Source: Chromera velia
Lineage: Eukaryota; Sar; Chromeraceae
DNA length: 64,000 nt
Direction of reading: 5' to 3'
Assembly (NCBI GenBank): GCA_018398765.1
Contig: JAHBMJ010002204.1
Location: 46,232-110,231 of the forward strand
Numbering within the stretch: the first letter of the stretch is position 1; each line of letters begins with the position of its first letter. Shown piece by piece: positions 139 to 61,977 of this stretch. A program made the position numbers and the translations under genes. Below the pieces are notes generated by a model. The model was given only the letters and a program-made list of their open reading frames with translations, was not told where the DNA came from and searched no databases.

Positions 139-1580
139 CATCGTGAAAGGAAACGGGCGTGTGGCGACAAAGAACCTCGAGTCCTTCCCGGTCGAGTGCC
201 CACAGGAGGACGGGTGGCTGAACGCTTTCCAGTTGATGAACCAGCAGGAGTCAGAGTGCCCGGACAACCAGAGCAAGATGAGCTGGGAGTGTGCATCCAA
301 CTGGAGGAGGGGTCAGTCAGTCAGCCAGCCACCCACCCAATCAGTCAATCAGTCAACCCGTTGGGTTGAAGTCGGGTTTGGCAGGAGAGTTGACAGAGGG
401 AGAAAGACCGTGTGAATAGTGAGGAGTCAGTCAGCGAAAGTCGTCTTGGAGACCGCCGACTCTCTTCTGCCTTGATTGAATCTACTGAACGAAAACGATC
501 GCGCGCTCATTCCAGTCCGCTGCGATCCTACTCGATTTGGTTTTCGTTTCCGGACTGACTGTGCGTGATGGACTGTGCGAAATGCATGCAGGCGAGTGCT
601 TCGAGCAGGACGTGTCAATTCTTCCTGTGGAGGGACAGGCCGGCAGACGGGTCCCCTTCATTTTGGGTCATCTGGACCAATTGAAGGGATACGTCGGTTG
701 TCCTGCAGGTGGGTGCGTAGCTGGACAAACAGACAGAGCTCATACAGAGTAAGAGTGATTCACTGATTAATTGGTGGAATGATTGGTTTGATTGATTGCT
801 TGCTTTGCGCCCCTTGCCGATCCCTCCTTCTGTTGTACCGCTTCAACTCTCTGCATTTCTTGTGGACAAAAGCGGATAGAGTGCAAAGGGGTTAAATCGC
901 ACATCCTGGTTTATTCTGCCTTCAGCTACCACCTTCCTGCTTCGTCTGGAAGAGAGACCTATTGGAAGAAAGTCTCTGTCCTTCTCGCCTCTCGCTTTTC
1001 TGCACCTGTTTGGTTCTGCGTGTTCATCTCTGCATCATCCGCTTTCTCCCCTGTCCCTCCCTCTCGACAATGCAGGTGCTGCTTTGGCCGGTTTCCGTGT
1101 TGAGGAGACAGGCGCGCCCTCCCTGCTCCAAGACAGCAGCGACAGACGGCTCTTCTCAAAACACCACCACAAACACAGGTGGGGGTTCTTCGCGAATCTC
1201 TTCAGGGCCGTCGGGAACTGTTCCAGCAGGTCTTCAACCCGCCGCCCCCACCCCCTCCTCCGCCCCCTCCGCAACCGCGATACTTCAAGTAAGTGGGTCA
1301 GCGAGAGAGAAAGCAAAAAGAATGCAGAAAGAGAAACGAAATATCAACAGGGAGCGGGGGCGCTCCGTTCTTTGAGCGGCCTGCCTTGGGGTCCGCTCCG
1401 GAGATGCGCCTACCTGGCTTCCTGTCTATTTATGAATGCTTCCCTGCGTTGAATGAATTAAATCCTTCCCTTGCAGGTACGTGTTCAAGTGCTGCTTGAA
1501 CCAGGGAATTGCCACGGGAGAGGACGCAAGGTCGAATCTTCCTGCCGAAACCGTTCGCACGGAGTGGCACAACGTGCAGG
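139..1580 (+). other. Cys-rich repeated module region (first copies)
   Basis: Two modules are visible here. Exon 139-311 reads VECP..GWLNAFQL....C.....MSWECA. Exons 592-708, 1076-1178 and 1477-1580 read GCPAG..LAGFRVE...RYVFKCC. A third begins in exon 1841 (VDCG....). Later copies end in FVYKC (4807-4942) and FAYKCC (6176-6799). The shared core is an N-terminal C-P/G-x-G, a hydrophobic G-[FY]-x-h core, and an aromatic-x-aromatic-x-C-C end. I do not recognise a named family for it. Confidence 0.55.
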
Positions 1581-4500
1581 GTGGGCCTGTGAAGGGAGGG
1601 GTGACTGTAGTGGGCCATGGTTTTTCTCTCCTCTCCGGTTCTGCATGCATCTCGATTCTTGCGGTGTGCATGGGCCAGGAGGTAGAAAGCTTCTTGTCCT
1701 CTGCCGCTTTTCCTGTATCATTTTTTTTTTTCATGTCCCGTGCTTGCGCCTCTGTCGCCTATGCTCTGTCATTCACTCCTTTCTCTCACTTCTAATTCTT
1801 CTGCTTTTGATGAAACGTGAGCGCGACACCTTAAATGCAGGACACGACCTCTCGTCTCTCTCGAAGTACCGAGTGGACTGTGGAGACAAAATGAGAGTGA
1901 TGACCTCGTAAGTCTTTCTTCCTGTTTCTCTTCCCTTCCACCTCTGTCCTCTCCCTTTTTTTTCCCTGCAGGGTGCATGACTCTGCGATTCCTCATTCCC
2001 CTCTGGGAGAAGTGCTCGTCAGCTCTTGATCCTCTGTTTCTCTCTCATTCTTGCCCCGTAGGGTATCCTACAGGCAGAAAGAGGTGCTTTTGGGTTTCCT
2101 TCGCAGAGCTCCCTTTTTCCCTTTGTTCGTGGTTCACTGTATTTTGTGTGCAGAATCGATTTCGAGTCCCACGCCTCCCAGACGTTGCGCATCTCTGCCG
2201 TGTGCCAGCCGATCGAAAGGGGAGTCGACGGGGGGTTCTCTGACTGGGGCGACTGGTCCAAGTGTTCTCTCTCCTGCCAGCAGTTCAGGTTCAGATCGTG
2301 CACGAACCCCAGACCTTCGAGGGGCGGTCTCCCGTGTCCAGAGGGACAGGAGACCTTCCAGGTGAGGGCCTGTCAGGAGAAGTGCGTAGTCGGGGAAAGT
2401 GAGCCTGAAGAGGAGTTGAAGGTCGGCCAGGTGGATCCCCTCGTGGGTCCCATCTGCAGTGCAGAGTCGGGATTCTTCCTCGGTGGGGCCTCTCAGCAGT
2501 CGTGCGGTATGTCGGGAGGACAGGAGTTGGTGCAGTCTGTCCACACGTGCAGACTCCCCCTGGACATCGAAAACTTCCCTCCAAGGAAGGACATGCCCCC
2601 TGTGACATGCACGGAGCATCGCTCACCTTGGTCGGTCTTCGGTTTGTGAGGTGTCGTTGTGCAATTTCGCGCATAGACCGGCGTATTACGCACATATAGC
2701 GCAGCGCGCCGGCTACCGAGCTCCCTAAATGTCTGCTCAATGTCTCTTGTTTTGACGAGAAGGAAAGCGACAGAGAAAAGCTGCTTGACTTTCCTTTCCC
2801 CAGATATGTTCCCTTTCCCGTTGTTCTTTATTCTTTTCTTTTGATTTCGATCCCGAGACCTGATCTCTCGCTGGGATCTCTGGCTCCATGCAAAGAGAAA
2901 GGAACCGAAAGAAAGGCCGGGCTGTGAAGGCAGCGTCCTCAAGTCTAGAAAAGCCATTCCTTCCCCCCCTTCGCTCTCTGTGCATGCAGGTACGTGGACA
3001 TGAAGGGTCCCGCCGGGTTTGTGGAATGCCCTTCGACGTCCGTGATGGAGAACCTCAGATGGCTCACAAAGGGGGGACAGGCATACGTTCCTCTGTCCAA
3101 GCAGGTGAGGGGGGGGAAGGGGGGATCCTTGGGGGGTCAGGACAGGGATACACCCGTACAGGCAGAAAGAAGGCGATTGGCAGGGATACGGGCTCTTTCT
3201 GAGTCCTCGCAGAGATCACTTTTCTCTTCTCTTTGAAGTCACTCCATCCCCGGGTTGTGTGAAGTCTTCTCTCATTTCTCTTCCTTTCGTGAGTGCTGGA
3301 TTTGCACTTTCTTTTCTTCGTGGAGGATTGACAGAGGCAAAAGGGGGATTGTTTGAAAGAAGGAAGGAAGAAAGAAAGAAAGAAGTTGGGCCATGCATGT
3401 TGCTGGTTGCCTGCAGATTCGAGATGCGAAGTGTGAGGACACAGGGGTGCTTGAGCTCTCGTGCCCCCGTCGGGAGGGGGTGAAGATCATCGACGCTCAC
3501 GTGTACGGGCCAGAGGATGAGGGCGCAGTCTCGGTGTGCCCGATTGTCCTTGCAGGTCGGTTGGGTCTGCTCCAGAAAGAGGATGGATGCAAAGGCGGGG
3601 GGCTCTTCTTCTGCATGGGTGTTTTTTTTCTTTTCTTGTCAGACCGCATAGGTGTTCTCCCAGCTCCTTCATCTCCTACCACCTGCCCCGCTTTCTTTTT
3701 TCATCTGTCTTGCAGGCAATGCCACGCGTCTGTTGAAGGACAGCGGAGAGACCTGCGAATCTCATTTTGTGAAGGACGCTGTAGCACAACATTGTGATGG
3801 ACGTCGACTCTGCAAACTGAAGGTGGACGCGGGTAACCTCGGGATTCCCAAGTCAGTCAGTCAGTCAGAAGAGAGAAGGAAGGAAGGGAAGAAGGAAGGA
3901 AGGAAGGAGGAGGATAGGGGGGGGGAAGAGATCTTTCCCTTTCCCGCTCTTTTCTTTTTCTCTTGATGCCGCTCAGTGTCCGAACGATCGATTGACTTGG
4001 GTGCACAGCTGAAACCGAGATAAAGGAGGCGTTATCGTGTGTCTCTCTGTCTTTCTAGTCCTTTTAGCCGGCTCACTTGAAAACCTTTCCTTACCCTTTC
4101 ACTGCAGATGCGCCTTTGAAGGCCTGCGAACTCTCCGTGTTCGATACGGATGTCACTCCGTGCACCCTCGCTCTCGACTTCTGTACTCCTGTTGCGACCT
4201 GGTGGACACAAAGTCGAAGGGCCCGTTGGCTCTCCACAAGATGCAGCCGTCAGAGGGGTCTGAGTCTGGGCTTCCTCTTCCGTCTACAGCGATATTCGAT
4301 GGGGGCGTGTTCCACTCGAAGTTTTTTGAGTCCGAGTGCTTCCCTGAGAAGGACGCGTCTGTGAGGCCTCTGGGGGAGACTGACGAGGAGACGAGGGAGG
4401 ACGAAGAACTCCAGTCGGCTTTTGGGGAACTCAGCTGTCCTCACGGGTATTTCTTGCAGGTGGGTTGAGGGAGTTAAGGGGGGTACCTGACTGTTGGGCT

Positions 4501-5078
4501 CATTTTTCTTTTCTTGGCGCCGAAAAGTTGTGTGAAAAAGGGTGTCTTGATTCAAAAAAGGGCATGCGCGTGTCTCTCTCTATCGCAGCGGCTTTGCTGA
4601 ATCTCCATTTAAAACACCGACTGACCGACCATCTTGCGTTGACTATTGTTTTTCTGTCTCCACAGTGTTGTGTAGGAGAGACAGAAAGCAGAGACAACCA
4701 TCACATGCATGCACTCGCATGCTCTTGAGATTCCTGTAAGGAGCAGGGAGGCACAAAGAGAGAGGTGCGAGGATTTCCCCATGCATTTCTGTCGGCCTAT
4801 ATGCAGGGCTATAAGGTGAAGGCTTGTGGAGCTGGCGAGAGGAAATTCGTGTACAAGTGCTTGCTCGTTGACAGACGTCAGTCGCTCTGCAATAAAGTGA
4901 GGGGAAGAAAGCTCTGCTCGAAGCTAGAAAACATCAAATTTGGTAAGAAGACTTCGCAAGTGAGGCTTCCTTTTGGACGGGTCTTTGGTATCCGTCAATG
5001 GGCGTTTTTGAACTGAGGGAGGACATCCACCAAACTTGCCTAAAGCTGCAAACACCGTCTGTATGTTTGAACTTTTGG

Positions 5079-5140
<62 letters not shown>

Positions 5141-5461
5141 ATTTCTGCGGGTTCATTTTGCTCTCGGCTATGCATTCACTGATGTTTGTGTGTGGCGTAT
5201 CTGTTTTCGTGACCCACTTCGCATGCATGTTGCAGGCGAATGGGTGGCGAGGCCGGCACACGGCAAAGCTTCCGGTGTGTGTGGTCCGACGAAAGATGCT
5301 GCTGCGCGTTTCCAGTTTGACTGCGGCACCAACGGCTTCCTCTGCTCAGTGGGATTCGAGGGGTGCACCGAACAGACCGCCAAAGGTGGGTAACATGGCT
5401 GGAGAAACTCCGTATGAACTTTTGGCGCTTGGTTGAAATCTGCATTCTGTGAATCTCTCTT

Positions 5462-5511
<50 letters not shown>

Positions 5512-6041
5512 TGTGTGTGCCTTCTTCGCTGAGAGTATGCATGCCTGCTTCTGCAAGCTTGAGTCGGGATTTTCGATCGAGTTGATCATTTTTCTAAATG
5601 ATTTCATAATCGCCTCCGTTGTTTGACAATGAATGAATCCTCTTAATTGCAGCGCTGGCCCTCCTGACGTCCCCTTCTTTCCAGACCAGCCGCCGGGAGG
5701 CACCGAGGTTCTTTGTGGACTCCCCAACGAGTCTATTGCAGAATCTACAAGCATACAGCGAGAGGGAAGCAGAGGCTGAAGAATTGGCGGAGACCTCTGC
5801 CCACATGAAGGTGGGCTGTGTAGAAGCACTTGATTTGTTCTTGTGCTGTGCAACTGAGATGTCATTAGTCCCGCTACATCTCTCTCTCTCTCTCTCTCTC
5901 TGTTGCTTCCCATGATTCTTTTGTCTCTCTGGTGTTCTGTGCCATTTCATCAGTTTTTTTGCGCCCACTGCAGACTTCCTCGTTTCCTTTCTCTCCATAA
6001 GAAAACTCTCTGTGTCTGTCAGTTGAACTTCGTCTGTCTGA

Positions 6042-6113
<72 letters not shown>

Positions 6114-7204
6114 TTGTCTGCCTGTAAGAAAAGAAGGGAGAAGAAGAAACATGCAGTCTGTCTCTCTGCTTGCAGGTCAACGGAATGTGTGCAGGGGTAG
6201 ACGTGCCCTCAAAGGTGGACTCTCGTTTGACCTCTCATTGTCTGGACGTGAGGGGAGCCTGGAGCTCTCTTCCTGGGAACGCCCTGGAGGGAGACGCGGA
6301 CACTCTCGGACTGTCAATTCTCATGAGGATGCAGACAGCACACTGTCTCCGTGACTATGGGGACGGTGAGGGAAAAAAGTCGGGTCTGATGCGAGATCTG
6401 CGACTGGAGGTTTCGAAGGACGGCACAGAGGCCCGTTTCGCGTACAAGTGCTGTTTGTCTTCCAGGGAGTTCCTCATGGGCAGAAAGGCGGAGAAGAAAC
6501 CCATCTACTCTTCTCGAAGTGCATGTGTTCCTGTGAGCAGGATGAGAGGGGCGGTCCCAGAGGGGTTGAATTTCGGTTGCAATGGAGGGAACAGTGGGTA
6601 TGCCCTGACGATGTTCACCTTCGAGCCCTGCGTACCGACTGAGTGGTGGCAGCCTCGTGGGTGGTTCAGGGCAGAGTTCACCTGCGCAGCTGCCGACTGG
6701 ACGGCGCTGGATAGTGAGATGATTCCTGTCGCAGAGCAGAGAGAACTGCCCGTGGACGACACCCTGAACGACTGTGAGGTTTTGCACCATACCTGTGAGG
6801 TCGGTCGGTCGGTCAAGCAGCCAGCCAGCCTGATGGGGGATAGAGGGAGATGGGGGCTGTCGAAGAGAGAGGGAGGAAGCACAGGGGAAACAAAGAGGAT
6901 CGAGTGAAGGAGGCAAGAAGAGTGCATGAAATAACAAGAACTAGCGATAGTCTGTCTCTCTTTCTGTTTCTCTTTCTGTTTCTGGTCATTGAGTAGTGCA
7001 GAGTGTTTCAGTTTTTTTGCTTTTCCCCTCGGCTCCTTTCTTTCTTTCTCTCTTTCTTTGAGAAAGAGGAAGGGCCCTCTGCCATCCCGCCAACTCTTCA
7101 CCCTGCGTCGCTTTGAATGATTTCTTTGTTCGTACCCGCATTTCTGCATGTCCACCAATCCCCTCTTTCAACCACCCTGCCTGCCCGCCTCTGTGTGTGT
7201 ATGT

Positions 7205-7244
<40 letters not shown>

Positions 7245-8086
7245 ACTCGCCCAAGCGGGACCAAACTGAATGGAAAGGACGCGTGTGAGGAGGCGCAGAA
7301 GTGTCGCACCTTCTGCGGCAAGGTGAAGGGCATGACCTGCCGCTTCCTTAAGCCACGGCGTAGGAGGACAGCCACATCCTTCGTGGGCCAGAAGCACAGG
7401 GAGAGTATCGGCGAGAGAGGGTCTGTCGCTTTGGCGACTGTCATGCAGAAGCGAGAAGAGAGAAGCACAGAAATGTCGGGCTTCCACTTTCTCAGTCTGA
7501 TGCGAGTCTCCAGAACCCCCCACGATCTCATGCAGCTGCTTAAATTGAAGGAGAAAGGAAAGGGGAGGAAAAAGGCCGGTCGGTCGAGACGAAATTTGAG
7601 AACTACACCTGCCCCTCCGTCCTCCCTGTCGAATTCTCTGGGTTCGGGGATTAGGAGTAAGTATCTGGCTGTAGCCGACGACTCAGGTGATTCTTCTGGT
7701 GGGACGGGAGACGACGATGACGATGGGGCCACTCAGGATGACTCGACGGTTGAGGGGGCGGAGGAGGATGAAGAAGAAGAGGAAGGGGGAGAAGAGGATG
7801 AAGAGGAAGAGGAAGACGAGGAGACAACGATTGCGGGTGCCCTGTCGGGTGTCTTCTCTGCGAACCCCGCAGATTGGGGGGAGAACCTGAAGGATCTGTG
7901 GGAGAACACAAAAGCGTTGGGGAACGCAACAGCGGAGGCCTTCCAAGACTATTGGAACGAGACCGAATACTACTTTAAGGAACTGAAAGAAAATTTCATG
8001 GAAGATCCTCTCGGAACTGCCATGGGGTTCTTTTCAGATACCTCGGGTCGGCCTGCCTCTCTGTGCTGTGGTGTTTTTTTTCTTCC

Positions 8087-8121
<35 letters not shown>

Positions 8122-8266
8122 CTTTCGGTCTCTGCCTCTGTTTGCTTTTTATGCGCATTGCTGTCATAGCGACCTTCGTTCGGCGCGCATGAAGCCCTTG
8201 GTGTATTTTTGCTTCTCTGATCCTTCTTCTCAGCATTGGGTCCTCCCTCCGTGTTTCTCTGATTGA

Positions 8267-8317
<51 letters not shown>

Positions 8318-8909
8318 TGTGTGTGAACTTGACGGATGATGCAGAATTTCTGGAAGGCACGGTGATTGGGGAGATTGCCGGGGAGGTGGGCACGCGGGCA
8401 AAGGACAAGCTCGACCAGGTGAAGGGAAGGGCGGTCGACAAACTGAAAGGACGGGAGGCGGGAGCGACGTATAAGATGCAGGTCAGGCAAACACCCGAAG
8501 AGGAAAGAAACAAAGGCCTCCGGGGAATAAAGGAAGGAAGAACAGAAGGTAGACTCCACTGTAAGAAGGCAAACACACAAAAAGAGAGAAAAAGCTTGAT
8601 ACATGCTTCTCAATGTATCCAAAAATTGGGAAAGGGTGCGAGAGAAAACAGGCAACGAAAAGGGGGAAGAGACGGAGCAAAGAACTACCTCTTTGCCTTT
8701 ATCACCAGTGTGTACAACCTCTTCAAATATCTTCAATTGCGTTTGCTTCTTTTGTTCTCTCATTTTTCTGCCTTTTCTTCCCACGTCTCTTCTTTTCTTT
8801 TTCTGTTCGCATTTCTGAGTGACAGCAGCGTCGGGACACCCAGTCGACGTTTTGTTTGTGAATTGATGACTGGTGGAGTTCGCTTGCATGCATGCATTTG
8901 TGTGTGTGC

Positions 8910-8946
<37 letters not shown>

Positions 8947-10009
8947 ACGTGTTGCTTGTGCAGAAGCTCCGAGAGGAGGGATTTGAGGGCACGGATGAGG
9001 AGCTGCAGGAGGAAGTGCGGAAGCAGTTGGCCAGAGAGAAGTTGACTGCGGAGAGGGACGCAATGGACAAGGAGGAGGCAAAGTCGAAGGGCGTCACCGT
9101 GGAGCAGCTGCGAAAGGACAAGGCGCGTGAGATGGGTCTGTCTCCTGCTGCGTACATGGAGAGGATGAACGAGGAAGACGACCAGACCCACCTGCAGAAC
9201 GAGGAGGCCATCGCCCTGAAGAAACAGACAGAGCAAGCAGCCGAAGAAGCGAAACAGCAGAAGCTCGATGCGCGGGCGCAGGAATTGATGGTCGGTCAGT
9301 TGATGCACGGGAGTTTGCTGTCTCCCCTGTTCTCTGGCTCACTTTTCGGAGTTTTTTCTCTCTCTTCACAGGATGTCAACCCACTGACGCATGCGGAACA
9401 TGAGAAGCGGCATCGGTCCATGCTGGCGCGTTTTCACTTATAAGCTTCACTTCTTTTCTCGAGACTCTAGATTTGGCTTCTGCAGATTCCTTCCTGGTCC
9501 TTCTGGCTTGAGTTCGTTGTCTTTTTTCCTTTATCTTTTTTGATCCATTGCGGTCGATCTGTAGTGAGACTTTCTGTGCCTGTCTGGTCTCTCATCCTTT
9601 CTCCCTTTCTCTCGGGTGCTTGCGCCAGACAAAGAACGGTCTGACAGAAATGGAAGCGAGGCAGGAGGCTGAGGACGAGGCGGCGCGGGTCGCCACAGCC
9701 GCAGATGAAGCGGCAGCGAAGAAGAAAGGAGAACTGAACAAGCTCCCACAGGCAGACCGGGAGAGACTTGCAAAGGAAGGGGGTTACGCTACGGGTGAGT
9801 CTTCGTTCGTTCATTTCTTTCCTCTTCGTCCCAGAGTCCCTTAATTATTCGCCACATGCACTCCTCCATGCATGCTCCCGATTTTTTCCCTCTCCCGCCA
9901 CTCTTTCTTTCTTTCTTCCTTTCTTTCTTTCCTTCTTTCTTTCTTTCTTTCTTTGCGCGGCAGATGGAGAGCGTGAGGCAGGTATGAATGAAGTCTTCTC
10001 TCTCCTGTC

Positions 10010-10051
<42 letters not shown>

Positions 10052-12570
10052 GAGATGCGTGATGTCGCCATGAATGAAGCAGACGGAAAGATGAAAGGAA
10101 TCATGTGGTTCACCATTTTCCTTCCATTTGACATGCTGAATTATCCCTGTTGTTTTTTCTGCTTGTGCCTACGCCGTTCAAATGCAAACAAGTCCCACGC
10201 ATTTTTGTTTTCCACCTTTAAAAACAAATAGTTAAAGGAGTGAACGAAGCAGGAAAGGAAAGGGAAGCAAGGGCCGAACGAAAAGGAATTAATGCGTGCT
10301 TGCAGTCGAAGAGTGGGAGGCAGACGAAGCAAAGAAGTCGAGCGAGGAGGCGGAGAGGACACAGAAGCTCGACGAAGATCTCGCTGCTGCGCGTGCAAAG
10401 CGAGACGGCGTATCAAAAGAGGATGCCTTGAAGCAGATTCACGAAGAAAAGGCGAGCGGGAAGACGCAGGCAGAGCTGGACGAGGAGTGGAAGAATAAGA
10501 AGGATGCCGAGACTACAGAAAGGCTCCGACAGTTGGAGGCTGCTGACGAATACAATGCAAAGAAGGCCGGAATGTGAGTCGATCAGTCAACGCATTAATT
10601 CGCAATTAGTCTCTCTCTCTTTACTCTCGCTACTCCTTCTTCGCTGAGCCATGAGTTGTGCAAGTTTGCCCACACTCCTTTCTTCTCGGGGATCTGGGAA
10701 AGTTTGCTTGGTTGTCTTCGTGTCACAAGCTCTTTCTACCGTCCGAGAATGCGCATGCGTGTGTGCGTGTGTGTCCCAGTCAGGGCCCTCCCCTCCCCTC
10801 CACTTCCCTCCCCACATGCATGCTTCCTCTCTCCTGAGTAGAACAGTGCATGGATGGATGAGCATGGGTTGATGTGGCCCGGCAGGCACACATTGTTGTC
10901 AGCGTTCTTTTCACTCACTTTTCTGCTGATTCTCCCTTTTCACTCCTTCCTTGAAGTCCCGTCGAGGAGTACCGGACCCAAGAGGCTGCCAAGCAAAACC
11001 CCGCGTGCGGTGCCACCAATGCCGAGGCCTGCCTGAAGACGAGACGAACAGAAGAAATCTTCAACAAAATGGAAGAGAGAGAGACGGCCTACAGGCAGGA
11101 GACTCGCGAAGCCAGACTCAAAAAAGCCTTCGAGGATAAAATAGCTACTGCGGTAGGTCTTTCCCTCACTGTGTCAATTTCTTTCTTGCAACACATGGAG
11201 CCTGAAGGGTGTCGTTCTTGCATGTGACGCCTAAACAGTGCTCAAAATGAAAAGCCGACTTGTCAGCCTTAATTGAGACAAGAAAATCTGTTGTGAAGTG
11301 CAAATATGTGCATCCATCCAGCCTTCCAATCTATCCAGGCGCAATTTCAATCTTCTCAGCTCGTTTCCAACGTGGGGTGTTTTTCTTTGTATGCAGACTG
11401 CTGACGCAGAAAAGGCCGCTCGGGTGTCTGAGGCGAGTGCCGACGCCACCGCCGCGTCCTCGCCGTCTGACGAGACAGACACAGAAAAGGACAAACCCGC
11501 GTCTGGGGCGGGTGACTTGACCCCTAGAGAGGAGGCGATTGCGGAAGAGAAGTTGAAGGAGGCGGAGGAGGCGCCCACGGCAGCCCCCATGAGTGAGGAA
11601 GACAGTAAGGCGTTGGGAGAAGAGATGAAGAAGAGTGAAGAATGGGAGAAGGAAAAGGTAGAAAAGGAGACTGAAAGAAAGCAGGACGAGGTCAAGGAAA
11701 GTTATGCTTTTGAGAGTGCGATGGGAAAGAAGGATGACGATGACGACAAGAACAAAGACAAGAAGAAGGACGAGAACGACTCGGACGATAATGACGATTC
11801 GAAAAAGAAACAGACAGGAGGAGGAGATGACGAAGATGATGACAAGAAGACGAAGAGTGGGACCACAACGAATGACAAAGACCAGGGCACAAAGACCAAA
11901 AAGACCACCAGCAGCTCCGCAGGAGGAGATGGAGGGGACGACAAATCTTCTCGAAAGCGATCAGACTCGACTCCTGGGTAGGTGGGTGGGTGGATGGGTC
12001 TGTTCTTCGCTGTCTGCTCTTTCTTTCTTTTTATTCTGGTTCTGTCGGTTTGTGTCTGCTTCAAGTTTGCGCGCTTCGAGAGGACATGCAGAGCTTTTCT
12101 CGATGCATCGTTATACAAATAGTGCAGGACAAAGAGAGTCATGAGTGATCGTGTGAAAGGGAATGATTGCCACGATATTTTGTTTTTTTGATCCATCTGG
12201 AGGCGCCTCGTTGCTTTTCTCTTTTTTGTCCTTTCCCTCACTTCCTCCCTCGTGTTTTTCTTGTTCTGTGCGAGAACGAAAGGGAGAGTAGATAATGTCA
12301 TTCATGCTTTCGTTCCTTTGAATCGTTGACTGTCTTGTTTGCCCTTTCTGCAGCTACCAGAGGGACACGGTGTCCTCGAAGGCCAAGCAGAAGGACAAGG
12401 TGACCTCTTCCTCGACCAAGAAGAAGGGAGGCGGGGGGTCTGGGGGAAGCAAGAAGAAGGGAGGCAAGGGCGGAGGGGGAGGCGGAAAGTCAAGGAAGAC
12501 AGGGAGGGCGTCTTCGTCGTCGTGCAGAAAGAAGAAACTCCTGTCAGTCTGGTTTTCTCTGCCTTTGTAA
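139..12570 (+). CDS. Large TSP1 / SUEL-lectin / Cys-rich protein with a charged coiled-coil C-terminal half (5' partial)
   Basis: Exons deduced by phase: 139-311, 592-708, 1076-1178, 1477-1580, 1841-1907, 2154-2630, 2990-3104, 3417-3555, 3716-3851, 4108-4459, 4807-4942, 5236-5385, 5653-5810, 6176-6799, 7245-8046, 8345-8481, 8964-9290, 9629-9794, 9964-9981, 10306-10573, 10957-11152, 11397-11977, 12354-12570. They join without a frame break to about 1,854 residues ending at TAA. Up to about 6800 the protein is Cys-rich, with repeated modules of the type C-P/G-x-G...G-[FY]-x-V...[FY]-x-[YF]-x-C-C, one TSP1 domain and one SUEL-type lectin domain. From 7245 it turns into an acidic D/E tract, then Lys/Glu-rich probable coiled coil, then a Gly/Lys/Ser-rich tail. 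No membrane segment is visible; a signal peptide would lie off-window. TSP1 and SUEL domains are extracellular adhesion and carbohydrate-binding modules in known families, so a surface or wall protein is inferred. Uncertain points: an alternative exon at 9372-9440, and whether both halves belong to one transcript. Confidence 0.75.
2233..2386 (+). other. Thrombospondin type 1 (TSP1) domain
   Basis: Within exon 2154-2630 the protein reads GGFSDWGDWSKCSLSC, then R-x-R-S-C-T-N-P, GGLPCPEG, and A-C-Q-E-K-C. This matches the WxxW..C..C, RxRxC, GGxxC.G and CxxxxC layout of TSP1 with all six cysteines. TSP1 domains mediate extracellular adhesion and occur in many alveolate surface proteins. Confidence 0.9.
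3417..4155 (+). other. SUEL-type (galactose/rhamnose-binding) lectin domain
   Basis: Exons 3417-3555, 3716-3851 and the start of 4108-4459 encode AKCEDTGVLELSCP...VKIIDAHVYG, then C-P, N-A-T, an H-C-D-G-R-R-L-C-K-L segment, GIPKCA, and LRVRYGC. This follows the SUEL lectin pattern: C...L.L.C, hxIxxAxYG, CxGxxxCxh, DPCxGxxKYLxVxYxC. The usual DPCPGT loop is replaced by a GIPKCAFEG sequence, so sugar specificity cannot be predicted. Family membership is inferred from pattern and not searched. Confidence 0.75.
5083..5139 (+). repeat. (CT)n(TG)n intronic tract
   Basis: A compound microsatellite in the TSP1/lectin gene intron between exons 4807-4942 and 5236-5385. The same compound order recurs at 5456-5519 and 8271-8325. 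Confidence 0.9.
7196..7244 (+). repeat. (TG)n tract fused to a 3' splice site
   Basis: The TG repeat runs directly into GTGCAG, so the acceptor of exon 7245-8046 is the last unit of the microsatellite. Positions 8912-8963 show a similar arrangement. Confidence 0.9.
7620..12570 (+). other. Acidic and coiled-coil C-terminal half of the TSP1/lectin gene
   Basis: Positions 7690-7833 encode an almost uninterrupted Asp/Glu run. Exons from 8345 to 11977 are rich in K, E, A, R and Q with heptad-like spacing and no cysteine clusters. Exon 11397-11977 ends in repeated KDDDDD and KKD-type blocks, and 12354-12570 is Lys/Gly/Ser-rich. This composition is unlike the Cys-rich first half, and no enzymatic motif is seen. 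Confidence 0.6.
9964..9981 (+). other. Candidate 18-nt microexon
   Basis: The 18 bases lie between GCGGCAG and GTATGA and fit phase 1 in and phase 1 out, adding six residues (D-G-E-R-E-A) between exons 9629-9794 and 10306-10573. Skipping it also preserves the frame, so it may be alternative or absent. Confidence 0.35.
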
Positions 12571-13322: not shown

Positions 13323-13501
13323 NNNNNNNNNNNNNNNNNNNNNNNNNNNNNNNNNNNNNNNNNNNNNNNNNNNNNNNNNNNNNNNNNNNNNNNNNNNNNN
13401 NNNNNNNNNNNNNNNNNNNNNNNNNNNNNNNNNNNNNNNNNNNNNNNNNNNNNNNNNNNNNNNNNNNNNNNNNNNNNNNNNNNNNNNNNNNNNNNNNNNN
13501 N
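13323..13501. other. Assembly gap (179 N) flanked by poly-G
   Basis: The run of N is preceded by at least six G and followed by a run of 13 G. The missing sequence is probably a long G homopolymer or G-rich tract. Confidence 0.95.
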
Positions 13502-45803: not shown

Positions 45804-45805
45804 CG

Positions 45806-45848: not shown

Positions 45849-45887
<39 letters not shown>

Positions 45888-45891
45888 TGCG

Positions 45892-45929
<38 letters not shown>

Positions 45930-49338: not shown

Positions 49339-49369
<31 letters not shown>

Positions 49370-49943: not shown

Positions 49944-49992
<49 letters not shown>

Positions 49993-50093
49993 TGTCTGTG
50001 TGTGTTCTCTCTCTCTTTGTGTCTGTGTGCTCTCTCTCTCTCTCTCTTTGTGTCTGTGTGTGTTCTCTCTCTCTCTCTCTTTCTCTTTCTCTT

Positions 50094-50173
<80 letters not shown>

Positions 50174-53100
50174 CTCCCTCTCCCTCTTTCTCTCGAGCCC
50201 TCTCTCCCTCTTTCCCTGGCTGCCTTCCCCCCCCTCCGTGCGTGTGCGTGTGCGTGTGTCTTTCCTTCTCTGATACTGCAGACAGATGGTCCGTTCGTGA
50301 CCTTTGCATGTTTTTTGATTTGATGTATCTTTTCCTTCTTGTCTTCCCTTTCCCCTCTCGCTTTCTGTGGGACGATGATCAGACGAGCTCTTGATCGAGG
50401 ACCTGGATGAATCCGGAGGGCCGAAGGACGGTTCTGCGAAGAAGGGCATCATCGGGGGACTCTTCCATCGAGTGACGAACTCTGTTCAGGGCATTACGGG
50501 TAGGCCTGTGTGTTGTGTGGGTGGGGGAAGGGGAAGGGGCAAGGTTCGCGTTTGGGTTTCATTGGACACCAAAAGAGAGCAAGACAACGAGAATGAAGAG
50601 TGAGTGAGGCTTGAATGAGGTGGGGGCGAACAGGAAGGAAGGAAGGAAAGGAAGGAAAGAACAGACATGCCCCGCCAGGTGGATAGGGGACGATGAGAAA
50701 TTTTTGTCCTTCAAACAGCAACATCCTCCCCTCTTTCTCTTCCTGCCTGACAATGTTGTGTCGATAGAGTCACACGACCCGTTCTCCCATGGCAGGCTTG
50801 CCCCGATGCTTCTTCACCGTTCTTATATCCTCTCTACATTTCTATGAGTTTCCCTCTCTCTTTTCCTCTGTCTGCGTTGTGGGAGGGTGAGTGCACGTGT
50901 GTGTGCATGCATTTGCGTGGGTGGGTGCAAGGAATTCAGGCAACAAAGTGCTGACAAAGGACGACCTGGAGCCGGTGCTGAAGGACTTCAAGCAGGCCCT
51001 GATGGCCAAAAATGTGGCGGCAGACATCGCTGAGAATCTCGCGGAATCTCTGAAGGTCGGTCGGTTGGTCAGCTGGCCGGAAGAGCAGATGAAGGCAACA
51101 ATCTGCATTGCTCCATCCTTGTCTCTGTTTGTCCATCTGCAGAAACAACGGAAGAAATGAAAAAGTTATGCAGTCTGTCTACCTCTCCGCCTTCCTTCCT
51201 TCCTTTTTTGTTGTTTGGGGAAGCAAATGACTGACTGTCACTGCGACAATGGCGCGCCTTCCCTGTCCGTATCTAGTGGGGAAGCGAAAGTCGTTAGTCC
51301 GGGTGGGTAAAAAGATGCGGAGAAGAAATGCGTAGCCAGAATCCGTCGCGTGAGGGCAATCTCGATGTTTTTCTTCTTTTTCCCGCGAGCCTGCACCTCG
51401 GTTTTCTCTGTCTGTCTGTCTGTCTGTCTATGTCTTTTTCTTTTTGTGCGCTACTTTTTGTGCTGGTTATGATAGTTGAGAGTACCATTTTGTTTTCCCT
51501 GGATTTCTTTCAGGCGACTGTGGTTGGCACCAAAACGGAGAGGTTCACCTCCGTGGCCACGACGGTGAAGCAGGCACTCGTGAAAGCCATCGAGAGAATT
51601 CTGACGCCCAAAAAGTCAGTCAGCAGGCAGGCAGCGCGAGGGGCAGAGAGGGAAGGAAGTTCGAGTGGAAGATGGTGTGTGTACTTGCGTGAGTGAACTC
51701 AGAGGGGGATGAATTGGAGCTCTGTCTGTCTGTCCCGCTTCGGGCGATGTGATCAGTCCTGACTTTCTCTCTTTTGCCTCACGCGTCCTCCAGTCTTCTG
51801 TCTGAATGGTTCCTCCCCCCTCTCTGATCAAGCCCAGCACGCCGAGGCCGCAAAGCATACGTACGTATACCAAACACATACGGATTCGTCCTATGGTCTG
51901 AGGAGTTGATCGAGAGAACCCTGTTTTTCTTTTGCCTCTCTCTGTGGTCCCTTTCCCAGGCGTTCCACAGGCATTCCACATTTTCCCACGGACCTGAACG
52001 AAAAATCTAACCCACAAATGACCAGTCTTACCGCTCTATGAACAAATGACCAAACTCATGAACTGATTGAAAAATAAATGTGCAGGTCGATCGACGTTCT
52101 GAGAGCAGCTCTCGAGGCAAAGGCCAACAACCGTGTGTTCTCGATCTGCTTCCTCGGCGTGAACGGAGTCGGAAAGTCGACCAATCTCGCCAAAGTGTGC
52201 TACTACCTCAAGCACGTCAGTCAATAAGAAGGTCGAACTATTCTGAGAACAGAAAGAACGACTGCATTTGAGCCTCTGTCGTTCCTCTTCCTTTGGTTAG
52301 GTCTTCTATCGTACCTCTTTCTTCTCCCGACTACCTAACTACTGCTCTCTCCAGCGCTTCCTTTGCTGCAATTGTACTGCCTATTCTTTCTTTGAGTCTG
52401 TCTGTGTGTATGTGTCTGCCTGGGCGCATGCAGAAGGGGGGACTGAACGTGATGATGGCAGCGTGCGACACCTTCAGGGCAGGCGCAGTCGAGCAACTCC
52501 GCACCCACGCGCGGTCAGTCCATGTCTCACTCAGACCGGCTGTGAGTATGATCCCATCCAGACACTCCTTCCTTCCCTTCATCGTCATGAAGTCGGTAGC
52601 TAGCCTTCTTTCGTGCCCTCACGGAGCGGCCGAGGTGCACGGACTCCCGGACAACAGCTTCCAATCTGTCCCGTCTTGCAGAATGCAGGCAGGCCTTTTT
52701 GTTTACTTGCCTGCCTCGATGCCTGGCTGCTTGCAGGAATCTGGATGTGTACCTGTTCGAGAGGGGGTACGGGAAGGACGCCGCCCAAATCGCCAAAGAG
52801 GCCCTCGCGTTTGCTGAGAAGGAGAACTTTGACGTCGTGCTGATCGATACTGCGGGGAGAATGCAGGTGGGGAGATCAGGAACTGTTTCTTAATTCCCTC
52901 CAGACTTGTGGAATCCTCAGGCGTATCTGAGAAGAAGACGTCGCATCAAATTTCCGTCCTTTCAGTCCACCTGCGGCACCCGAATGTTGTCTCTCCTCAC
53001 TCCTCCGATGGCCCTGCTCCTGACCGACTGACCGACTGCTTGATTGAGTGCGGGATTGTGTGAGTAAAATGGTCCACAGTGGAGGTACTCAACACTGGAA

Positions 53101-54013
53101 AGAAGTAAAATGTCTGTCTGGCTTCATGTACTGGAACGAAATCCCATTTCTTCGCAGGATAATGAGCCGCTGATGAGGGCGCTCGCCAAGCTGGTTGCGT
53201 GGAACTCCCCTGACCTCGTTCTCTTCGTTGGTTAGTGACTTGTTTAGATTGGATCTTTCTGTCCTCCTCCTTCGCTACCCCTCTGATGAATCACGTGACT
53301 GTTTGGCTCTCGTACGCTGTGGTTTCATGACTTTTGATGGGTGAGAGCAGGAAACTTTTGTTCGATCTGATTATCCCTGCCTCCCCTCTGCTTCCTCTGA
53401 TCTTTCTTGTCTGCTTTCCCCTTTCAACCAATGCTTGCTGTTTCTGTGTACGTTGCTTGACTCTCCCACGCGGCTGCATGCAGGAGAGGCGCTGGTGGGA
53501 AATGATGCGGTGGATCAACTGAAGAAGTTCAACCAGTGTCTCGTGGACATGGCGCCTCAGGTCGGTTGGTCTGCAGCACGAAGGAAAGAAGAGAGGAAGA
53601 TGAAGGGATCATTCATGAATCAGGAAAAGCTGATTGAGTGGAAATCTGCGGGAGGGAGGACTTTTCGTTCCTTCCATGGCTGCGGTTTCCGGGTCTCCAC
53701 TCTTCTTTTTTGTTGACGGTTCGGGCGGACCACTGTCTTTTTTAGCGGAGAATCTTGACTTCTATGCCTTGTCTATCTCCCCCCCCCCCCNNNNNNNNNN
53801 NNNNNNNNNNNNNNNNNNNNNNNNNNNNNNNNNNNNNNNNNNNNNNNNNNNNNNNNNNNNNNNNNNNNNNNNNNNNNNNNNNNNNNNNNNNNNNNNNNNN
53901 NNNNNNNNNNNNNNNNNNNNNNNNNNNNNNNNNNNNNNNNNNNNNNNNNNNNNNNNNNNNNNNNNNNNNNNNNNNNNNNNNNNNNNNNNNNNNNNNNNNN
54001 CCCCTCTCTGTAC

Positions 54014-54047
<34 letters not shown>

Positions 54048-55739
54048 TGGTCATCTGCAGGGGAGTCCGCCAAGACTTATTGACGGAATTCTGTTGACAA
54101 AATTCGATACAGTGGATGACAAAGTCAGTAGCTTCAGTCTTGGATGTGTCGTTAGACTGCCTGCCTGTACGCCGACAGATTTCGTTAAGTGTTGGTTTAT
54201 AAGTCAGTGTGTTACGTATACGGGGAACTGATGAACGCTCAAGTGTGATAGGCAATTTCTCACGTGAACACAGGGGGAGGGAAGGAGGCAGAGGGAGAAA
54301 GAGAAAGAGAGAATGCGACCCATAGAGGGAAGCAGACAGGGGGGAGAAACGGCTTTCAGTCTCCCTTTCTGTGAGCGCAGTCGTGAGCATGCTACTGCAT
54401 GAATTTGCCTAGACACACAAGTTGCGTACACATACTGCGTACATCCATACATACGTTGAACTAAGGGTGTGTATGTATGTGTGTGTGTATGTGTGTGCGT
54501 TCGAGTGCAGGTGGGTGCTGCACTGTCGATGGTTTACATCACGGGACAGCCTGTGGTGTTCGTCGGCACAGGGCAGAAGTATCCCCACCTGCGAAAGATG
54601 AACGTGAGTGAGGGAGGGTGTATTGGTGGCAGTTGCATTCTATCAGCAATATCTTCTAACTTCACCGCATTGTCGATTTTGGACTTACGGCAACACGCTG
54701 TGCGGTGATCTGACTGTACGAGACGTTTTATCGTTGGTGCCTTTCCCCCAGATTCTCTCTGTTGATCCAATTTGTTGTGTGGACGGGTCAGAATGGAGCG
54801 CGCGTACTTACCTGGATGCGTGGCCGAAAGGGATGGAGTGCCTGCATGGGTTTCTTGCTCTTCCTTCCTTCCTTCCTTCCTTCCTTCCCTTCCTTCCTTT
54901 CTTCCTTCCTTCCTTTCTTCTTCTTGCTTCCTTCCTTCCTCCCTTTCTTGTTTCCTTCCTTTCTTGTTTCCTTCCTTCCTTTCTTGCTTCCTTCCTTTCT
55001 TGCTTCCTTCCTTCCTTCCTTCCTTCCTTCCTTTCTTGCTTCCTTCCTTCCTTCCTTTCTTGCTTGCTTCCTTCCTTCCTTCCTTCCTTTCTTGCTTCCT
55101 TCCTTCCTTCCTTCCTTCCTCCCTTCCTTCCTTTCTTCCCTCCTTCCTTTCTTCCTTCCTTTCTTCCTTCCTTCCTTTCTTGCTTCCTTCCTTCCTTTCT
55201 TGCTTCCTTGCTTCCTTCCTTGCTTCCTTCCTTGCTTCCTTCCTTCCTTCCTTGCTTCCTTCCTTCCTTGCTTCCTTCCTTCCTTCCTTTCTTCCTTCCT
55301 TCCTTCCTTGCTTCCTTCCTTCCTTTCTTGCTTCCTTCCTTGCTTCCTTCCTTGCTTCCTTCCTTCCTTCCTTCCTTCCTTCCTTGCTTCCTTCCTTGCT
55401 TCCTTGCTTCCTTCTTTCCTTCCTTGCTTCCTTCCTTGCTTCCTTCCTTCCTTCCTTGCTTCCTTCCTTCCTTTCTTGCTTCCTTCCTTCCTTTCTTGCT
55501 TCCTTCCTCCCTTCCTTGCTTCCTTCCTTCCTTGCTTCCTTCCTTCCTTCCTTGCTTCCTTCCTTCCTTCCTTGCTTCCTTCCTTCCTGGCTTCCTTCCT
55601 TCCTTCCTTCCTTCCTTCCTTTCTTCCTTCCTTGCTTCCTTCCTTCCTTCCTTCCTTTCTTCCTTCCTTCCTTTCTTGCAACTTTCTTTCTTTAGATGTG
55701 TGTCTCTGTGCGTCTTGTGAGTAAAAAGCAACGGGAAAC

Positions 55740-55779
<40 letters not shown>

Positions 55780-55933
55780 CGGTTGACCGACTCGCTGTGG
55801 TTTGCTCTCCATGGAGATCGGTGGCTTGGTATTTTCCTCTTGTACAGTGTGACCACGCTCTGCTGACGCTCCATTGGTGTCGTTGTTGTTGTTGTTGCAG
55901 GTGAACACTGTGATCAAGGCGCTGCTCGGTTAA
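48467..55933 (+). CDS. SRPRA: Signal recognition particle receptor alpha subunit (SRX-NG GTPase)
   Basis: Exons: 48467-48586, 48693-49227, 49436-49479, 49759-49945, 50383-50499, 50940-51055, 51514-51614, 52086-52215, 52434-52513, 52737-52866, 53158-53230, 53484-53560, 54061-54123, 54511-54603, 55901-55933. They total 1,899 bp, 632 residues plus stop, close to animal SRP receptor alpha. Residues 1-150 form the SRX longin-like domain ([20 protein letters not shown] start), which binds the beta subunit at the ER membrane. A charged linker follows ([11 protein letters not shown] and acidic runs). The NG GTPase then shows [13 protein letters not shown] (G1, about residue 430), [19 protein letters not shown] (about 514), TKFD (about 583) and [12 protein letters not shown]. 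It docks SRP-ribosome complexes at the ER and hydrolyses GTP together with SRP54. One intron holds an assembly gap and another a long TTCC array. Confidence 0.96.
49946..50190 (+). repeat. (CT)n / (TG)n / (TTCTCT)n intronic tract
   Basis: A long pyrimidine-rich tract that begins at the 5' splice site itself (GTCTCTCTCTCT at 49946) in the SRP receptor intron before exon 50383-50499. Confidence 0.9.
53791..54000. other. Assembly gap (210 N) flanked by poly-C
   Basis: Ten C precede and four C follow the N run, inside an SRP receptor intron. The coding model jumps across it without loss: ...DMAPQ joins GSPPRLIDG in phase. Confidence 0.95.
54861..55680 (+). repeat. Long (CCTT)n array in the last SRP receptor intron
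   Basis: About 820 bp of CTTC/CCTT units with scattered CTTG, CTTT and CTCC variants. It is open in all + frames as F/L/P/S repeats, but the SRP receptor exons join in phase across it (54603 to 55901), so it is intronic. Confidence 0.95.
55740..55780 (+). repeat. (GATT)n microsatellite
   Basis: Nine or more GATT units, downstream of the CCTT array in the same SRP receptor intron. Confidence 0.9.
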
Positions 55934-56302: not shown

Positions 56303-57845
56303 CTTGCGTGTAGGTTTGGGGTGGAAAGTCCAAACCCTTTCTTCTACTCCGGTTGCATGACCCTCCATGTCGGTTTGTCATTCTCTTTCAGAGAAAAAAA
56401 GGACCGCGCATTTGCATAAGCATCCGACCCCTTGAGAGAAGAACACATCTTGATGGAATGATAAACAGACAGCTTTCTATAGGCATCTGTGTGTAACAAA
56501 TTTTGGGGCATATGTTCCTTCAACCAATTTGATCGAAGGACTCATTCGACCGCGTGTCACGACCCCAACTCTCTTCTTCCGATCTGGCTCCGCCTATCCC
56601 CCCCCCTTCATCTGGTGCCTATCGGTGTTTAGGGTTTGTATCTCTTTCTGATTCAGACGCAATGAATGAAAGCAGGGGGGGTGTGATTCACGTACAGGAA
56701 ACGCCGTGTCTGAAGTTGCGAGACATTCATGCAAACATTGCAAGGGTTATTTAATGTGCATGATGATACGCTGCATGACAGGCTCCGTTGTACTGCGTGC
56801 GAAATTTAATTCAAACGATATCAAACTAAGATTTTAATTATTGATGATTTATCATTAAATTTGGTAACTGATTTATGCAGTGGCAAATATAATAACGTTC
56901 ATTGATTAATTAGATAAAGTCTGGCTAAACAAATATAAGCAGAATTAAACAGAGCCCAATCGACTTGACGGTTTTGAAAACGCCATCAGACTATATCAGA
57001 TACGGATTCTGGATGTAGTTAAGACTTTTGTTAGATTCTATTAAAATTTTGATTACAATTAATTGTGTTATTATCTTTAAAAAAAAAACTGTCATATGTC
57101 AGTATATATCGGCAGCGTTTTTTTATTATTTTTTATCTATTTTAATCCATATTTTGGTACTCTAGCAGTACCCTGCAGAGAGAAAAGAACTAAAAGGAAG
57201 ACTTCCTTTATGTGGTTGTTTTCTTGGTCTTCTCTCTACTTTCATATAATAATTTGCCAATAAACTAAAACACTAGTCACTGTCATCTAGATTCTGGCCT
57301 TTAGCAGCCCAATAACTCTGCTAGGTCTAGTGTTAGTCGATTTTTACTGCGATTTCAGTGCCGCCGATTTGGTGTACCGTTTTCTATAACAGTGCTATTG
57401 TACCCGGCCTCTTCGAAGGTTCCGTCCGTCGACACAACAAAAGGTGCAAAATACTTTTGACGTGCTTTAGAGATGGCACGCAATGCGCGCGCCATCGCCT
57501 CACGAGGCCTCACGCGCCGCGACCACCGCAAAATTCGAAACCCGGCGCCCGAAGATCCCCGAAGCGCTTCTTCGATGCTTCTTCGGCTGTTTCCACAAGG
57601 AGTACAGCAACATATAGCAACGTCTGTCCTCATTATCGAATGGAGAAAAACTGGTTTCGTAGTGCCAGCTGGGGCTCCTTTTTCGAATTTCTGTTTTTTT
57701 TCCTTTCTGAATTGGGCGGCCACTGAGAGTATCAGGGCGTACTCCGTGTACTGACCACTGGCACTGTCGCTCAGTGCTTCATTCCGGCCAGCAGGGTCGC
57801 GATTCCTTTGGTAAAACGTGTGCAACTTGAACGAAAGAAAGCAAG
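55934..57845. other. Intergenic region between SRP receptor and ZNF830-like genes
   Basis: It begins with the SRP receptor 3' flank, including a TG/GA tract at 56221-56302. From 56750 to 57350 it is AT-rich with no gene. A GC-rich block at 57470-57560 carries a possible relic ORF on the - strand. Confidence 0.6.
57355..57633 (-). other. Possible relic ORF, transposon-like (weak)
   Basis: The - strand frame from 57633 encodes about 92 residues ending KARQKYFAPFVVSTDG and a short tail. The FVVSxDG phrase recalls the C-terminal part of some retroelement ORFs, but this is recollection only. No RT or integrase motif is present, and the block is more GC-rich than its surroundings. Confidence 0.25.
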
Positions 57846-61096: not shown

Positions 61097-61129
<33 letters not shown>

Positions 61130-61977
61130 CGACATGCAAGTGTGCGTTTGTGTTTACACATGTGTACAAGCAGGAGAGAATTCGTGCCCGGCTCGACGAA
61201 GAACGTTTCGAAGAGGGGCGACAGGAGGACCTTGCTGTGGACAAGTCAGTCTGTCTGTCTTTCCCCTTCTCTGTCTGTCTGTTTGTCTGTCCACTTTGTT
61301 TGAGTTGTCGTGATGTTTCTTTGTCTTTGTTGCTTTCTTTCTTTTTGTCTGTTGTGTTCATGAAGAAAAGGAGGGAAAGAAACCATATAGTCTGGCTGTC
61401 TTTCACACAGTCTGTCTGTCTCTGAGGGTTCGGAGGGAGCCCGCTCGGTCGGGGCTTTGAAGCTCTACCCGAGATTTGAGGCTGCATCTCAATCTCGCCA
61501 TCCGAGTCTCCCTTCTCAATCAACTATGAGTGTGTGTCCGCTCCTTTGTTTTCTTTTTCGCCCTCTTTCTTTCCCGTTGCATCCCTCAACTTGCTTGCTG
61601 CGTGTTGTCAACGCAGTGACTTGCGAGAGCGTGTGGAGCGTTTGAAGGCACAGAGAGACGGAGGAGCGGCGGCTGCGGCTGCGGCTGCGCCAGGCCCTCC
61701 ACGTGGAGGTCGGGGTGTTCCTCTGGTGGCATCAGTGCTGAGGAAGAAGAAGATGGAAGCCGCTGCAGCTTTGAAGCAGCAGGAGAGAGGCCTCGGGTTG
61801 AAGACAGAAGGGCGTGTGAAGGTGAAGAAAGAGGAGGAGGAAAAACTGGGCAGTCAAGACATGAAACAGGACAAAGTGACAGCGGGAATGATAGGGGGAG
61901 CCGAGGGAGCAGAGGAGGAGTCCGATGATGGAGAGGAAGAAGAGCAGTTCTTTTCTTGGCGAAACAAAATGGTATGA
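57846..61977 (+). CDS. ZNF830/CCDC16-like nuclear coiled-coil protein lacking a visible zinc finger
   Basis: Exons: 57846-58038, 58246-59001, 59316-59371, 60155-60311, 60601-60692, 61174-61244, 61617-61977. All phases agree; 561 residues. The N-terminus is a Gln/Glu/Arg helix. The 756-bp second exon is strongly acidic (D/E/G/P blocks) with a basic KVPRRED patch. The recognisable part is PTGFFDDPEQEALARG (end of exon 4), then LEADLKRFEAEIDLE and RLDEERFEEG coiled coil, a Gly/Ala/Lys-rich stretch, and an acidic FFSWRNK end. The GFFDDP motif followed by a coiled coil and a terminal WRxK resembles ZNF830/CCDC16, a component of the XAB2-associated spliceosome complex. The C2H2 finger that normally opens this family is not seen, so either an exon is missed or the finger is lost. 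Nuclear RNA-splicing function is inferred. Confidence 0.65.
60703..60897 (+). repeat. Dispersed intronic repeat (CTGTCTG...GAAGAAAAGGAGGG type)
   Basis: A CTGTCTG-rich start, a T-rich middle and an ATGAAGAAAAGGAGGGAGAA core followed by GAAACATGTAGTCT. Related copies lie at about 6036-6172, 61246-61410, 62548-62655, 62698-62826 and 63118-63195. Confidence 0.65.

Follow-up and report, generated by a model that had tools for sequence, protein, structure and literature searches.

Donor (5') splice sites with C at intron position +3 are enriched in a 64-kb stretch of Chromera velia DNA, and the enrichment extends beyond that stretch. The stretch, which we call the window, lies on the contig labelled C2193 of a 177.8-Mb eukaryotic assembly. 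As modelled from the DNA, C is the commonest and the only clearly enriched base at +3, the consensus of the lineage is CAG|GTCAGT (the bar marks the exon end), and the introns would be ordinary GT-AG introns of the major spliceosome. In the donor consensus, +3 is taken to be a purine almost everywhere, and this is attributed to pairing with U1. An earlier note on the window had proposed that pairing with U1 or U6 is altered, or that strong acceptors make +3 C tolerable. The reading that we prefer and propose here is that pairing would be altered without a change in either small nuclear RNA (snRNA), with C+3 lying opposite G44 of U6.

C is enriched at position +3 of modelled donors

We wrote a gene-finding hidden Markov model for the purpose and trained it on the sequence itself, adding to the window 200 kb from two other contigs (C3840 and C884; 264 kb in total). 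Run A accepted only GT donors and learned weights for positions -3 to -1 and +4 to +6, while +3 was given zero weight. This run produced 241 introns, with C at +3 in 117, G in 70, A in 30 and T in 24. The C share ranged from 45 to 52% by region, at 32 of 71 in the window (45%), 60 of 115 in C3840 and 25 of 55 in C884; the window value matches the roughly 64 donors, 29 of them GTC (45%), that the earlier note had deduced. Run B, in which donor scoring consisted of GT alone and nothing else was learned, was noisier, and its 233 introns had C in 93, G in 74, T in 38 and A in 28. A preliminary flat ab initio model whose splice penalties were low gave 499 introns with a median length of 129 nt; it over-predicted short false introns and was discarded. 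A held-out set of 25 loci (76 kb), fetched for other purposes and lying outside the training DNA, yielded 43 introns at 18 of the loci (C 20, G 13, A 7, T 3). GT and AG ends were imposed in both runs and in the main spliced alignment described below. The genome-wide share of +3 C is extrapolated from about 340 kb of the 177.8-Mb assembly, and in that DNA a share of only a few percent outside the window, which the earlier note had named as grounds for abandoning its claim, was not borne out.

As background we used GT dinucleotides other than donors. GTC made up 27.5% (1923 of 6989) of non-donor GT within the same introns and 31% (1322 of 4269) of sense GT in exons. Against the 27.5% figure, the excess of +3 C was clear in run A (117 of 241, p = 4.8e-12) and was also present in the held-out set (20 of 43, p = 0.009) and in the window (32 of 71, p = 0.002). 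T was depleted, occupying +3 in 10% of donors against 23% of the background, and purines together occupied it in 100 of the 241 run A donors. The top donor hexamers in run A were GTCAGT (46), GTGAGT (25), GTCGGT (20) and GTGGGT (13), with GTAAGT at 6. At the other donor positions of the same introns we observed G at -1 in 64%, A at +4 in 121 (50%) and G in 73, G at +5 in 213 (88%) and T at +6 in 166 (69%).

Homology places many donors at GTC

Homologous proteins were aligned to the genome by a spliced-alignment program that gives every GT an equal cost and leaves AG free. Queries came from matches in the Protein Data Bank (PDB) and comprised pyruvate kinase, two calcium ATPases, signal recognition particle (SRP) receptor alpha, ascorbate peroxidase, cytochrome P450 and inositol 5-phosphatase. 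For each intron, delta denotes the score lost once the chosen donor is banned, and a donor was taken as anchored when delta was at least 6 and the acceptor was a pyrimidine followed by AG. The 60 aligned introns had C at +3 in 29, G in 20, T in 8 and A in 3. Length or a non-YAG acceptor excluded 13 of them (C 6, G 3, T 4); a further 11 (C 6, G 3, T 2) had a delta below 6. In the 36 anchored introns that remained, +3 was C in 17 (95% interval 30-65%), G in 14, A in 3 and T in 2, so that purines accounted for 17 of 36; at delta of at least 15 (n = 22) the counts were C 11, G 9 and T 2. Anchored donors carried G at +5 in 35 of 36 and T at +6 in 27 of 36, compared with 129 and 119 of 233 in run B, which had no donor scoring. 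Run A recovered 31 of the 36 and run B recovered 19. Three of the four aligned introns of the P450 anchor were likely gap artefacts, the homologue being too diverged, and were dropped.

Within the window alone, the donors that passed every filter (n = 12) had C in 4, G in 5, T in 2 and A in 1, a C share below that of the whole set. The earlier note had counted +3 C in 18 of 36 donors of homology-anchored window genes; our alignments gave 11 of 24 unfiltered, 6 of 14 at delta of at least 6 with any acceptor, and 4 of 12 fully filtered. All 19 of the example donors that it listed do read GTC, and 16 were donors in run A, 6 in run B and 8 in the homology alignment (delta 2-26). Of the three examples absent from run A, the one at 54124 is backed by homology (delta 18), 24785 sits in a (GTCG)n array at a distance of one unit from the donor that was modelled (24781), and 28796 is unsupported.

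These alignments also bear on whether the +3 C donors are artefacts of the gene models, with the true donors nearby. When all 16 donor dinucleotides were allowed (GT receiving 0.01 as a tie-break), nine of the 36 anchored introns did move their donor; the other 27 kept a GT donor, however, and the nine alternatives shared no common motif. Moreover, 11 anchored +3 C donors lost 15-40 score units when banned, and the predicted pyruvate kinase, whose nearest match is PDB 3eoe (which we take to be a Toxoplasma protein), aligned without gaps across 490 residues. In several arrays the next-best donor was another GTC unit, and the possibility raised in the earlier note that the true donors are nearby GTRAGT sites was not borne out in the DNA. 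We regard an artefact of this kind as extremely improbable.

Tandem GTNN arrays accompany many donors

Among the donors that have GT at +5/+6 (151), the bases at +3/+4 recurred at +7/+8 in 51, against an expectation of 18.1 (sd 3.7, maximum 31 in 2,000 shuffles), and the first unit was the one used in 47 of these 51. Of the occurrences of the motif GTCRGTCRG, 46 were at a modelled donor or no more than 24 bases away. The others were in introns (14 sense, 17 antisense), in exons (9 sense, 1 antisense) and in intergenic DNA (4). Identity at a period of 4 in +3 C introns was 0.45 at +7 to +40 and still 0.39 at +81 to +140. Since such repeats are common deep in introns, the arrays may simply reflect how rich in repeats this genome is; the accessible part of a report on the Chromera velia genome describes many low-complexity repeats (PMC4501334).

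One could accordingly suppose that +3 is nearly neutral and that (GTCA)n or (GTCG)n arrays made by slippage on a GTNNGT donor raise the share of C. The surplus of exact unit repeats, the use of the first unit and the persistence of period-4 identity far inside introns all favour this. However, donors without a tandem repeat were still C-rich (82 of 190, p = 4.3e-6 against the 27.5% background), so the arrays fail to explain +3 C. The depletion of T argues that +3 is not neutral, and the restriction of AAA exon ends to +3 C sites, described below, also stands against slippage. We consider this explanation unlikely, although it has more in its favour than the artefact just discussed.

U1 and U6 look canonical where they meet the donor

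The Rfam U1 model, applied to the best 41 of 2442 first-look candidates, gave three U1 matches: L001 at 79.3 bits (cut-off 69.5), L002 at 48.2 and L003 at 36.4. L001 and L002 both start with AAACTTACCTGG, the sequence that normally pairs with the donor, and L003 is without a 5' end. L002 and L003, which fall under the Rfam cut-off and have no upstream element of the kind described below, may be pseudogenes. Seven U6 matches all exceeded the cut-off; ACAGAG was present in 7 of 7 and ACAGAGA in 6 of 7, with ACAGAGT in the remaining copy (L009). We also found two copies of U5, both with the usual loop GCCTTTTAC, and one U4.

We then searched the genome for a variant U1 5' end, allowing any base opposite +3. 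The only places with zero mismatches were the two canonical ones, and the pattern occurred at 61 places in total against 64 in a reversed control. Places with one mismatch and a G facing +3 (L015 and L017) had no U1-like continuation. A 19-base element, TTCCTTCGAAAAACCGGAA, lies after a T run and 34 bases upstream of U1 (L001), U5 (L012) and U4 (L045), and resembles an snRNA promoter element. With up to 2 mismatches it occurred at 55 places in the genome, compared with 5 for a control. The U1 and U5 genes already mentioned account for three of these places; another 20 were read (32 unread), and they included one U4 but no further U1. Many of the extra copies of the element, some of them in repeat families, precede sequences without an assigned name.

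A U1 variant with G facing +3 could have escaped detection, either through divergence or because the assembly lacks it. Alternative U1 RNAs occur in a diplonemid, according to the accessible part of PMC12621601, the assembly may lack part of the genome, scoring covered just the best 41 of the 2442 candidates, and L001 is the sole U1 copy that both exceeds the Rfam cut-off and has the upstream element. The U1 matches nevertheless consist of two canonical 5' ends and one copy without a 5' end, the exact matches to the any-base pattern were canonical only and no more places were found than in the control, the near-matches facing +3 with G were not U1, and none of the 20 element places read is a new U1. 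We judge such a variant to be very unlikely. A U1 or U6 of changed sequence was not encountered (for U1, among the best 41 of 2442 candidates and in the pattern and element searches). The data support a lineage-wide donor preference; they do not support altered U1 or U6 in the sense of a change in snRNA sequence.

The alternative suggestion, tolerance through strong acceptors, found no support. C was present at acceptor position -3 in 98 of the 117 +3 C introns and in 104 of the 124 others, and pyrimidine content was 0.674 and 0.675, respectively. The usual acceptor consensus is YAG, which is looser than the (T)GCAG seen here; G occupied -4 in 180 of the 241 modelled introns (for example, in those ending at 3715, 48692 and 55900 on the forward strand).

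+3 C donors appear to lean on the intron side

The cost of +3 C for U1 pairing is considerable by computation, about 4 kcal/mol (CAG|GUCAGU -7.8, CAG|GUGAGU -12.0 kcal/mol). The +3 C sites did not compensate for it elsewhere. Across 284 introns, the six remaining positions that pair with U1 had on average 3.91 matches in +3 C sites, 4.11 in +3 G sites, 3.65 in +3 A sites and 3.26 in +3 T sites, and the comparison of C with G and A together gave p = 0.48. An AAA exon end, which gives U1 two pairs fewer than CAG, was always followed by +3 C (10 of 10 sites in run A, 9 of 9 in run B and 6 of 6 anchored, in sets that share DNA). From U1 pairing one would expect the reverse. The 43 held-out introns contained zero AAA| sites. 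In the training regions, +3 C was found in 30 of 46 sites with A at -1 and in 68 of 154 with G at -1 (p = 0.018), and +3 C went with A at +4 over G at +4 (odds 2.2, p = 0.012).

The +3 C sites show the pattern of the U6-dependent class of Parker and colleagues, whose donors, as far as the available text of PMC9803359 describes them, depend on the intron side. SNRNP27K with Met141 is present in the assembly, as is a METTL16-like gene (Pfam Methyltransf_10) that encodes NPPF, and their presence fits the preference for A at +4. Downstream of the METTL16-like exon at L066, which ends after NPPF, comes an extended (GTCA)n/(GACA)n array whose first bases are GTCAGA.

We give about an even chance to the proposal that +3 C is favoured through pairing with U6 G44 while the sequences of U1 and U6 are unchanged. 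The base at +3, usually A or G, contacts U6 G44 weakly, as stated in the accessible part of PMC11732430. In our proposal, the donor would be read mainly at the handover from U1 to U6. C+3 would be Watson-Crick paired to U6 G44, adjacent to the C42:G+5 pair and to the stacking of (m6)A43 on A+4, and the mismatch with U1 at +3 would be tolerated, with G at +5, U at +6 and often G at -1 still pairing. Tandem (GTNN)n duplication at the donor would then copy the favoured unit into the intron. The broader claim that the whole nuclear genome has shifted from a U1-favoured GTRAGT to a U6-favoured GTCAGT, with AAA| used only with +3 C, we put forward tentatively, as somewhat short of an even chance.

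Several observations weigh against these proposals. A thermodynamic fold of the short U6/donor duplex was nearly uninformative about a C+3:G44 pair (-0.1 versus 0.0 kcal/mol). At AAA| sites U1 could pair in a register shifted by 4 nt, for which ViennaRNA pairs AAGU with ACUU. The link with A at -1 was absent from the small held-out set (3 of 7 versus 9 of 19), and the difference in -1 G between +3 C and +3 purine sites reached only p = 0.089. Taken alone, the 36 anchored donors exceed the 27.5% background at only p = 0.014. The scarcity of A at +3 (12%) largely mirrors that of GTA, which is 11% of intronic GT, and the donors are those of DNA models and protein alignments.

A changed spliceosomal protein (U1-C, LUC7, PRP8 or neighbours of SNRNP27K) might instead read or tolerate +3 C, in which case C+3:G44 would not be causal. 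Switches at +4 among 240 species tracked proteins without a change in U1 or U6, in the part of PMC10581693 available to us. Here, the U1-C zinc finger (CHYCCIYLTHSSPGGRRQHN) differs at several positions from the PDB chain, and the assembly has a second, weaker U1-C-type match. Against this, no protein change was linked to +3 among the proteins compared, which did not include LUC7 and PRP8, and SNRNP27K retains Met141. We think a protein cause improbable, less so than a variant U1.

Donors and genes of the window

The best anchor in the window is the gene for the SRP receptor alpha subunit (48467-55933, forward strand; phmmer match to 5l3q_B, 7.1e-105), for which the spliced alignment covered all 636 homologue residues. 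It contains three AAA|GTCAGT donors, at 49228-49233 (delta 11, runs A and B), 51615-51620 (delta 26, run A) and 54124-54129 (delta 18, not in run A). CAC|GTCAGT at 52216-52221 has delta 20 and was in run A; its aligned acceptor is AAG, which places it outside the 36. AAG|GTCAGG at 49480-49485 (delta 9, run A) is likewise outside the 36, with a doubtful acceptor. Lower deltas were obtained for GCG|GTCAGT at 52514-52519 (delta 2, run A), CAG|GTCGGT at 53561-53566 (delta 3, run A) and AAG|GTCGGT in a (GTCG)n array at 51056-51061 (delta 4, with a GTC alternative 12 nt on; runs A and B). At 49946-49951, AAG|GTCTCT is a possible donor that was used in run A; homology picked another, with delta 0. 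An N run at 53791-54000 lies within the intron 53561-54060 of this gene. All of these are on the forward strand.

On the reverse strand, an inositol 5-phosphatase (synaptojanin/OCRL-like) region forms part of a large gene (21360-28500; phmmer match to 4cmn_A, 9e-34, with a spliced alignment). ATG|GTCGGT at 23287-23292 has delta 15 and was found in runs A and B. The GTCGGT donor in a (GTCG)n array at 24776-24781 is uncertain in register (24785, 24781 or 24777); run A chose 24781, and homology chose 24777 with delta 3. Run A also placed reverse-strand donors AAG|GTCGGC at 26808-26813, GAG|GTCAGT at 28351-28356, GCA|GTCAGT at 32915-32920, CAA|GTCAGT at 33960-33965, AAG|GTCGGT at 34334-34339 and AGG|GTCCGT at 35537-35542, and a doubtful one, CAT|GTCTGC, at 24282-24287 (run A only). 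The cytochrome P450 gene on this strand (44048-47858; phmmer match to 6c93_A, 3e-34) is a weak anchor, with one of four aligned introns usable.

The remaining donors are on the forward strand. Positions 1-14903 appear to hold a large gene with a secreted-looking predicted protein, one stretch of which we take to be thrombospondin-type-1-like. Runs A and B agreed on GGG|GTCAGT at 312-317 and CAA|GTCAGT at 3852-3857, both in (GTCA)n arrays, and on GAG|GTCGGT at 6800-6805 in a (GTCG)n array. Run A alone gave TTG|GTCGGT at 2631-2636, CAG|GTCGGT at 3556-3561, CGG|GTCGGC at 8047-8052, CAG|GTCAGG at 8482-8487, ATG|GTCGGT at 9291-9296, CCT|GTCAGT at 12543-12548 and CAA|GTCAGT at 61245-61250, as well as AGG|GTCAGT at 18450-18455 and CAA|GTCAGT at 62548-62553 in weak gene models. 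Possible donors seen only in run A are CTC|GTCAGC at 2018-2023 (short intron, doubtful), ACA|GTCTGT at 38501-38506 (73-nt intron, doubtful) and AAC|GTCTGT at 57622-57627. Outside the window, C3840:67342-74808 (reverse strand) appears to encode, in one predicted gene, an ascorbate/cytochrome c peroxidase-like protein that continues into repeats, presumably ankyrin-like.

Comparison with known donor systems

A donor that favours C at +3 with unchanged U1 and U6 would separate U1 binding from donor choice and would make the U6 G44 contact testable across species. If true, it would offer a natural test of whether commitment to the donor is made at U6 and not at U1. Many introns of this genome may be overlooked or wrongly placed by gene finders that were trained on other eukaryotes. 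A literature search that covered titles and abstract openings, included the hexamers and reached few subscription papers returned no report of a genome whose donors are led by +3 C.

The comparisons that follow draw on the accessible parts of the cited papers. GTAAGT is described as the strongest and most frequent hexamer, and donor strength in Arabidopsis, fly and human tracks distance from it (PMC12480690). Relative to the standard U2-type donor CAG|GTRAGT, the donors described here share G at -1, A at +4, G at +5, T at +6 and canonical U1, U4, U5 and U6 RNAs, with GT-AG imposed in the models; they differ in that C occupies +3 in 49%, GTCAGT is the top hexamer and GTAAGT accounts for 6 of 241.

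The introns of dinoflagellates, Amoebophrya and diplonemids (PMC7789003, PMC12621601) are similar in being alveolate or protist introns whose donors pair poorly with canonical U1, but there +1/+2 are altered or motifs are lacking, whereas here GT-AG introns are described. Among 240 species, mostly Saccharomycotina, variation at +3 is limited and switches between A and U at +4 occur without a change in U1 or U6 (PMC10581693). That system has in common with ours a donor preference that changes while U1 and U6 stay invariant; there the change is from A to U at +4, whereas here it would be from purine to C at +3, in an intron-rich, alga-like genome. The U6-class donor //GURAG (PMC9803359, PMC11732430) prefers A at +4 and G at +5, as do the donors here, and accepts a weak exon end with a strong intron side, as at the AAA| sites; SNRNP27K with Met141 and a METTL16-like gene are also present. 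The difference lies at +3, where that class has a purine and the donors of this genome favour C.

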